Assembly (NCBI RefSeq): GCF_024343775.1
Contig: NZ_RJUF01000014.1
Location: 1 to 64,000 of the forward strand
Direction of reading: 5' to 3'
Length of the DNA: 64,000 nt
Source: Lacihabitans soyangensis
GTDB lineage: Bacteria; Bacteroidota; Bacteroidia; Cytophagales; Spirosomataceae
In this document: piece by piece, positions 5,576-8,218 of the stretch
Position numbering within the stretch: position 1 is the stretch's first letter
Layout: each line of letters begins with the position of its first letter
Notes under the pieces: generated by a model
The model's database searches: none
Told to the model about the DNA's origin: nothing
The model's input: the letters and a program-made list of their open reading frames with translations, nothing else
Translations under genes and position numbers: made by a program

Positions 5576-8218
5576 TTATTTTTTTCTAACCGAAACCGCA
5601 ATTCTACGGTTTTGTGCTCTTCCTTCTTCAGTATCGTTTGAAGCGGCTGGATGTTGGTCACCATATCCTTCAGATTCCAATCTTGCTGCATCCGTACCCA
5701 TGGCTACCAAAGCTGCTTTCACAGCGGCTGCTCTTTTTGAGGATAACTCCAAATTAGAAGCTGGAGCACCAACATTGTCTGTATATCCACCCAATTTGAT
5801 GGCAACAGCTGGAAATGCTTTCAAAATTTCAGAGATGTTTTTAACTTCTGAAAGCGAAGTTGAATCCAATTTGTCGCTACCCGTTTCGAAATTCAAGTTC
5901 ACAAAATTGAACCAGTTTTCTTTTCCAGCAACTGAGTCTGCGTTTTCGATAAAGTTAATCAATTGATCTTCAATACCGCCTTGTGCAAATGATAGATTAA
6001 CACCAGTTGAAAGTTCTTTTGAAAGAGTTTCAACGGCAACAACCTCGGTTGAAGGCTCAGAAACCACAGCAGTAGTTTTCTGAACAGCAATATAAGGAGC
6101 AATAACCAAAGAAACGATAGACATCAATTTGATCAAAATGTTCATTGAAGGACCAGAAGTATCTTTGAAAGGATCACCTACTGTATCACCAGTAACGGCC
6201 GCTTTGTGTGGTTCTGAACCTTTCTTAAATGTTTTTCCATCGATCAATACGCCTTTCTCAAAAGATTTTTTAGCGTTATCCCAAGCTCCACCGGCATTTG
6301 ATTGGAAAATTCCCATCAAAACACCTGAAACTGTAACACCAGCTAACAAACCTCCAAGAATCTCGGCTGAGCTTGTAGTTTCGAAAATTCCTTTGAAACC
6401 GAAACCTACTAATACAGGAACCAAAATAGCAATAGCTCCTGGCAATATCATTTGTTTGATAGAGGCTTTTGTAGAAATCTCTACGCATTTTTCGTATTCA
6501 GGCTGAGCTTTGTATTCCATTATTCCTGGAATTTCTCTGAACTGACGACGAACTTCGTTTACCATTTCCATCGCAGCTTTTCCTACGGCAGAAATACACA
6601 AAGCACTGAAAATAAATGGAATCATGCCACCCACAAACAATCCTGCCAAAACTGGAGCTTTATAGATATCTATTGCAGAAATACCAGAGATACCCACAAA
6701 TGCAGCAAACAAAGCCAATGAAGTTAGAGCAGCTGAAGCAATCGCAAAACCTTTACCTGTTGCAGCTGTTGTGTTACCTACTGCATCCAAATTATCTGTT
6801 CTTTCACGTACTTCAGGAGGTAACTGAGACATTTCAGCAATACCACCAGCGTTATCCGCTATTGGACCAAAGGCATCGATAGCCAACTGCATGGCCGTAG
6901 TGGCCATCATACCAGCAGCGGCTATAGAAACTCCGTAAATACCTGCAAAAGCATAAGAGAATATAATACCCGCAGCCAATACCAAAATAGGCAATACTGT
7001 TGATTCCATACCTACTGCTAAGCCACCGATGATGTTTGTAGCGTGACCAGTTCCTGATTTTTGTACAATCGAATCAACAGGTCTTTTGCCCATTGCTGTG
7101 TAATATTCAGTAATGATTGACATCAAGGTACCCACTATCAAACCAACCACAATGGCATAAAATACGTCCATTGAACTAAATTCAAATCCTCTCAAATTAA
7201 GCGTTTCTGGCAAAATTTCTTTCACCAAGAAATAAGAAGCAACCAAAGTGATGACAATTGATAACCAGTTTCCTAGGTTTAAAGCATTCTGTACGGAGTC
7301 TGTTTCGTTTTTAACTCTTACAAAAAACGTACTAACCATAGAGGCCAACAAACCTACACCTGCAATAAGCATTGGCAACAATACTGGTGAAAAACCACCA
7401 TAGTTATCCGTTACGCTAATTTCTTGTCCCAAAACCATTGTAGCCAAAATAGTAGCGACATAAGAACCGAACAAGTCAGCCCCCATACCAGCCACGTCAC
7501 CTACGTTATCGCCCACATTGTCGGCAATAGTCGCTGGGTTTCTCACATCATCTTCAGGAATACCAGCCTCTACTTTACCCACTAAGTCAGCACCAACGTC
7601 AGCAGCTTTGGTATAGATACCACCACCTACACGAGCAAAAAGAGCAATTGACTCAGCACCCAAAGAGAAACCAGCCAATACTTCAATGGCTTGTCTCATA
7701 CCTTCAGAAGTTAATCCTTGGCCTTGAGCGAAAATGTTGTAAAATGCTATAAACAAACCTCCTAAACCTAAAATAGCCAAACCAGCAACGCCCATACCCA
7801 TTACGGCACCACCTGTAAATGACACATTAAGAGCTTTAGCCAGAGACGTACGAGCAGCGTGAGCCGTTCTTACATTGGCTTTTGTGGCTACTTTCATACC
7901 TACATAACCTGCGAAAGCAGAAAAAATAGCTCCTATCAAAAATGCTATTGAAATTATCCAAGAAGAATGTATTGGATTTTCAGGAGTGCCTTCGTCCATC
8001 CCTAACCAAGCCAAAATTAGAGCAGTAGGAGCTGCAAACATAGCTAAAACTTTCCATTCCGCTTTTAAGAAAGCGATGGCACCATCTGCAATATAACCAG
8101 ATAGTCTCTGCATGTTTTCGTCTCCGGCTTCTTGGCGAGATACCCAGTTGAATTTCCAAGCTGTGTACAACAATCCAATGACCCCGAATAATGGAACCAA
8201 ATAAACAATTGAATTCAT
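5576..8218 (-). CDS. hppA: Ion-pumping membrane pyrophosphatase fused to OmpA domain
   Basis: Couples pyrophosphate hydrolysis to ion pumping across the inner membrane. Residues 1-710 are a full 16-helix M-PPase. Substrate motifs include [16 protein letters not shown] (about 202-217), the [12 protein letters not shown] aspartate cluster (233-244) and [15 protein letters not shown] near 678-691. [10 protein letters not shown] (481-490), with Ala rather than Lys at 485, marks the K+-dependent class. The TM6 position that is Glu in Na+ pumps (FESYV) is Gly251 here, and a Glu189 occurs in TM5 (GAES). This resembles the Flavobacterium johnsoniae type of proton pump, so H+ transport is inferred. 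Residues about 770-880 are an OmpA-type peptidoglycan-binding domain (GYTDN with Asp814, [12 protein letters not shown]). Ordinary M-PPases end near residue 700-770. Both M-PPase termini face the periplasm, so the extra domain would be placed to grip the cell wall. Confidence 0.95.

Follow-up and report, generated by a model that had tools for sequence, protein, structure and literature searches.

A membrane pyrophosphatase with a C-terminal OmpA-like domain as an example of module exchange at the end of a predicted proton pump

Results

The fusion gene and its surroundings

The window, a stretch of 64,000 nucleotides of Lacihabitans soyangensis DNA, contains a single uninterrupted frame on the reverse strand that encodes a complete membrane pyrophosphatase (M-PPase) and a complete OmpA-like domain joined by a linker (Table 1). 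The original prediction had described a pump followed by a linker and a full OmpA-like domain in one frame, and Pfam matches together with the presence of D814 and R829 bear this out. Its coordinates, 5576..6000, cover only the last ∼140 residues, and the gene itself spans 5576-8218.

Table 1 Coordinates of the fusion gene and its parts within the window
Feature	Position	Strand	Basis or remark
Fusion gene, M-PPase + linker + OmpA-like domain	5576..8218	(-)	880 aa, ATG start, TAA stop
M-PPase core, residues 1-712	6083..8218	(-)	Pfam, NF001955, alignment, model
Linker, residues 713-776	5891..6082	(-)	Very low model confidence at 714-730
Small folded linker element, residues 731-758 (beta hairpin, then helix)	5945..6028	(-)	Model
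OmpA-like domain, residues 777-880	5579..5890	(-)	Pfam, Foldseek
D814, predicted peptidoglycan ligand residue	5777..5779	(-)	Alignment
R829, predicted peptidoglycan ligand residue	5732..5734	(-)	Alignment
E189, position 5.43, gate glutamate of F. johnsoniae-type H+-PPase	7652..7654	(-)	Alignment, table of PMC6882861
A485, position 12.46, marks K+ dependence	6764..6766	(-)	Passages of PMC6882861 and PMC10897367

An error of sequencing or assembly that joined two neighboring genes, which the original prediction had itself raised, would produce the same picture. All nine other genomes of the genus (G001-G009, among 59 relatives searched) were found to match residues 1-880 in one open frame, and the fused frame is also present in further genera and families. 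The closest named record found, Lacihabitans sp. CCS-44 (L032), is 96% identical. Because independent assemblies from the same genus carry the fused frame, a joining error is excluded, and we give that explanation practically no chance.

Pairwise Nei-Gojobori estimates of ω between the window and L003-L006 were 0.017-0.028 for the core, 0.110-0.175 for the linker, and 0.041-0.077 for the OmpA part (four comparisons). In comparisons with L007-L009, in each of which one or more regions are saturated or nearly saturated at synonymous sites, the OmpA part gave 0.082-0.083 (a ratio could be formed in two of three) and the core 0.031-0.060. The low values for the OmpA part indicate that the tail is a selected part of the protein and not read-through. 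The fusion is confirmed as genuine, conserved, and under purifying selection.

For four of the seven neighboring genes, nearly all matches were to the same genus or to near-identical records of it, and the S8-type and PIG-L-type neighbors match other loci too. No functional link was seen in an operon or conserved neighborhood, a weak test in that most same-family loci gave only ∼1.5 kb of flank. Near the fusion gene, the segments at 108-1001 and 1155-1757 of the window are, judged by eye, presumably transposase-like.

The pump core and its type

The core matches the H_PPase family (PF03030) at residues 13-706 over the entire profile (1-645 of 645; 889.9 bits, E 1.5e-267) and scores 1237 bits against NF001955, for which the cut-off is 1059. 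In a Foldseek search of the PDB, ranks 1-36 were all M-PPases (TMt 0.86-0.89). D207-x7-K215-x-E217, which we take to be the catalytic Asp/Lys/Glu motif of loop 5-6, is present and invariant across 32 aligned rows. With helix numbering set on the assumption that R196 is 5.50 and K489 is 12.50, the gate residues are E189 (5.43), G251 (6.53), A255 (6.57), and A485 (12.46). In a table of PMC6882861, the Flavobacterium johnsoniae K+-dependent H+-PPase is listed with a glutamate at 5.43, and passages of PMC10897367 likewise discuss this enzyme. As in that pump, position 5.43 of the protein described here is E, neither 6.53 nor 6.57 is Glu, and 12.46 is A, and by its residues E5.43 and A12.46 it is predicted to be a K+-dependent H+-PPase of the F. 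johnsoniae type. Among 202 cores, a pattern search found the E/G/A/A set in 40 of the 41 that carry an OmpA tail. The remaining one, L026, lies outside the search pattern, and the glutamate column is invariant in the 32-row alignment that includes it.

The genome from which the window derives yielded one M-PPase match. The pump is not the cell's only pyrophosphatase, as one soluble pyrophosphatase gene (PF00719) is located elsewhere in the genome. A same-genus genome encodes a second, tail-less M-PPase (L210, G006:C11) whose gate positions 5.43, 6.53, and 6.57 are occupied by S, G, and D, a combination unique to it among the 202 cores. YceI tails were also observed on two M-PPases outside the E5.43 group, L203 and L204, in which 5.43 is S and 6.53 is E.

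The OmpA-like tail and the side it faces

Residues 777-871 match OmpA (PF00691) over profile positions 2-98 of 98, with an E value of 2.8e-20 and a score of 72.9 bits (cut-off 27.2). The predicted ligand residues lie in the motifs GGYTDN (D814) and SSKRA (R829). In 53 aligned OmpA-class tails, counted with the copies L001, L032, and L221 left out and the identical pair L009/L036 kept, D814 is conserved in 51 and R829 in 52; the exceptions, L226 and L230, are both eroded tails.

A structure model was built from 28 sequences (mean pLDDT 81.6, pTM 0.73; the first row lacks Met1, such that the model number equals the residue minus 1). It places the last pump helix at about 669-710, followed by the stretch of very low confidence, the hairpin-helix element of the linker, and then an OmpA fold. 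After the M-PPases, the Foldseek matches were OmpA-like domains including 5wtp and 3td5, the latter in complex with an m-DAP pentapeptide.

M-PPases generally have both termini on the periplasmic or lumenal side. In the model, segment 675-690, which we assume to be catalytic and hence cytoplasmic, occupies the early portion of the last helix, which would bring the chain out on the opposite side. YceI, OmpA, and FKBP are exported families, and all three were found in the tails of relatives (see below). A tail on the periplasmic side, as the original prediction had proposed for the C-terminus, would fit both this anatomy and the tail families of relatives. At E values up to 0.01, weak matches were also obtained to DUF748 (three), DUF3471 (one), and GST_C_3 (one) in a set of 68 tails and to DUF748 (one) in a further 23. 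GST_C_3 would be a cytoplasmic family, and these weak matches do not all fit a periplasmic location.

Within the window's genome, the tail has 17 further matches, all at or below 42% identity. A close paralogue from which the OmpA module might have been copied was not found among these 17, the best of which reaches 42%.

Erosion and loss of the OmpA tail within the family

An M-PPase match was found in 137 of 150 genomes of the window's family, giving 142 rows, of which seven partial ones were left out. Among the remaining 135, 75 frames are at least 838 aa long, 58 are at most 783 aa, and two lie between. The original prediction had called for a survey of pump-OmpA fusions. An OmpA profile match was obtained in all 37 examined family frames of at least 838 aa, the window's included, and in 2 of 90 M-PPases sampled across Bacteroidia among the matches listed. 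Among the 37, the tails of L017 and L230 are eroded and that of L225 is cut by a contig end. None of the nine examined frames of at most 783 aa matched. As for the two frames between, L226 matches the OmpA profile, and L231 does not, its last residues being remnant-like. Frame length is not a safe proof of a tail, since L138 is long by virtue of its upstream end and has a tail of 32 residues.

In total, the OmpA tail is eroded in L017, L226, L230, and L231 and absent from L019, L224, and L234-L238, all with intact pumps. The tail remnants show that losses have occurred within the family, and because the tail is eroded or gone beside intact pumps, it is dispensable in those relatives. On these sequences, erosion and loss beside intact pumps argue that the OmpA part would not be needed for pumping.

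Tail classes across Bacteroidia

Within the class Bacteroidia, 267 of 295 genomes had an M-PPase match at E values up to 1e-100. A sample of 90 loci (L112-L201, 85 genus codes) was drawn from the best-scoring among the matches listed and is therefore biased. Tails of at least 60 residues are present in 65 of these 90 M-PPases among the matches listed, a result at odds with the starting expectation that M-PPases normally end after the 16th helix. With domain classes assigned by local profiles and Cys-rich defined as at least 60 residues with at least six Cys, the 90 comprise, among the matches listed, 36 Cys-rich, 22 YceI, 2 OmpA, 1 FKBP, and 4 other tails, and 25 of fewer than 60 residues. The tail of L192 is cut by a contig end and that of L203 is also incomplete, so that their classes (Cys-rich and YceI, respectively) refer to the part present; the tail of L200 (the same as L239) has 47 residues. 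When the 68 tails within L112-L204 that reach 60 residues were searched with Pfam, YceI was identified in 24, OmpA in 3, and FKBP in 1, and another 23 tails added two YceI, one FKBP, and one OmpA. Where a genus code is represented by two loci, the tail class differs in four of five cases (L147/L201, L151/L152, L153/L154, and L181/L184); L137/L138 agree.

By local profile, YceI-like domains are fused at the same place of the M-PPase in 26 tails (L058, L062, L119, and L130 among them), and FKBP-type isomerase domains in two (L083 and L152). Cys-rich tails are the commonest long class (36/90 among the matches listed), and many carry the pattern CDMSKC..MTKEECA..CDS..C. Five of them scanned singly (L051, L059, L060, L117, and L166) gave no Pfam match over the cut-off, and a model of the L093 tail is of low confidence (pLDDT 66.4, pTM 0.38). 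The 155-residue tail of a Cryomorphaceae M-PPase (L111:8119-8583) likewise matched no Pfam family.

Separate histories of cores and tails

A FastTree tree was built from 202 cores, with two duplicates and one split frame left out. Tail class requires 57 changes on this tree, as compared to a mean of 107.6 when classes were shuffled. Taken singly, OmpA tails require 8 changes, at least 5 of them forced by starred branches, and YceI tails 20, at least 11 of them forced. The cores of L021-L023 group with a Spirosoma-type lineage (98*), and a tree forced to place them in the window's lineage is worse by 169 log units (p-AU 1.3e-95). Their tails group with the window's lineage (100/100), and a tree forced to place these in the Spirosoma-type lineage is worse by 143 log units (p-AU 4.6e-60). 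The groups compared in the AU tests were named after the trees had been seen, making the p values optimistic; the conflict is still large. The cores and tails of L021-L023 have separate histories, brought about either by a move of the tail or by replacement of the core. In a quick tree of tails, which contains long paralogue branches, copies from DUF937 proteins nest among the pump tails.

Repeated change of tail class, erosion within genera, and the conflict between core and tail trees together identify the window's fusion as one instance of a module that can be exchanged at the end of a proton pump. A broader reading, to which we assign an even chance, is that the PPi-driven H+ pump of Bacteroidia is a chassis with a periplasmic socket, into which OmpA, YceI, FKBP, and Cys-rich modules are swapped by recombination independently of the core, repeatedly re-equipping one type of pump for different envelope tasks. 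Under such a reading, OmpA would contribute wall binding, YceI lipid binding, and FKBP a foldase.

Discussion

We consider it rather probable that the OmpA tail is an accessory, non-covalent tether of the proton pump to peptidoglycan, placed on a socket that other modules share. The last helix would be followed by ∼17 flexible residues, the hairpin-helix element, and the OmpA-like domain, together forming a periplasmic module whose OmpA-like domain would bind the diaminopimelate stem peptide of peptidoglycan via D814 and R829. As the pump is presumed to be a dimer, two such domains would hold it non-covalently to the wall, and the tether would set the place of the pump or the range over which it drifts, outside the pumping cycle. 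Periplasmic location, wall binding, and positioning are each inferred. The place behind the last helix would be an exchangeable socket in Bacteroidia, occupied in turn by OmpA, YceI, FKBP, and Cys-rich modules. Since the other tail classes have no known affinity for the wall, tethering cannot be the general role of this place.

The roles could also be reversed, with the pump serving the domain as an inner-membrane carrier that anchors unrelated periplasmic domains doing work of their own. That four unlike tail classes occupy one place and repeatedly change there would agree with such a carrier, as would intact pumps without a tail and the presence of the OmpA module on DUF937-OmpA proteins as well (three of which align over query residues 711/712-880, at 49-57% identity). 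We nevertheless regard it as rather unlikely, because it leaves the choice of this particular pump unexplained; where the tail is OmpA, it is also not fully distinct from tethering. If instead the fusion were simply tolerated and of no use to the pump, its harmless tail would be gained and lost by chance, which the erosion and loss seen inside genera would fit; the low ω of the OmpA part in all four comparisons and the retention of the ligand residues in every aligned non-eroded tail make this improbable. A sensor, in which wall binding or stretch alters pumping, would draw on the fact that, in the model, the predicted wall ligand site is physically joined to the last pump helix. However, the ∼17 residues of very low confidence between helix and domain would transmit little, and relatives that do not have the domain have intact pumps, leaving this a very improbable reading.

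If the tail does grip the wall, as the tether predicts, an ion pump would be fixed in the envelope, and the natural tail-less relatives would be ready controls for the effect of position on a primary pump. Should the socket reading hold, the C-terminus of the M-PPase would reveal the periplasmic activities that benefit from attachment to this pump, and the Cys-rich tails that match no Pfam family would form a defined set to study.

Relation to known systems

This type of fusion is already in print for Betaproteobacteria: the relevant passages of PMC11210485 describe an OmpA-related C-terminal domain in the M-PPases of Paucibacter and its relatives and leave its role open. Table 2 of that paper, a sample of BLAST hits, comprises five sequences, which carry the labels Paucibacter, Burkholderiaceae, Betaproteobacteria, or Pseudomonadota. 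There, too, an M-PPase is followed by an OmpA-like domain, in a protein of ∼810 aa; unlike the pump described here, it is predicted to be K+-insensitive, the table contains no Bacteroidota, and the two are likened by description. Among the openly licensed PMC papers listed by our searches, no further account of this type of fusion, no fusion in Bacteroidota, and no exchange of tails was found, and the excerpts of PMC4602150 and PMC10965572 that mention a pyrophosphatase and OmpA treat them as separate proteins.

Five proteins of the same family (L205-L209), each composed of DUF937 and OmpA according to Pfam, share with the fusion its OmpA domain and the linker, complete or in part, at 49-57% identity across the five, the two not aligned from 711/712 doing so from 734/736. 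The alignments thus take in the hairpin-helix element of the linker, entirely or partially. They differ in having no pump and, by eye, in a hydrophobic stretch before the linker.

An OmpA-like domain behind a bioenergetic membrane protein is also seen in the PsaB chain of a photosystem I (7f4v_aB), the organism of which we take to be Gloeobacter. Residues 758-865 of its 872 match the OmpA-like domain (E 6.4e-10), on an unrelated membrane protein with a different energy source. Passages of one paper on Gloeobacter PsaB say nothing about this tail.

In the MotB/PomB stator, an inner-membrane helix, a linker, and an OmpA-like wall-binding domain are joined on an ion-conducting complex, and the tail described here matches MotB and PomB chains of known structure. 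The stator runs on ion flow and not on PPi, and by family matches its membrane part is unrelated. The fusion is not a MotB-type stator, given that its own membrane part is an M-PPase.
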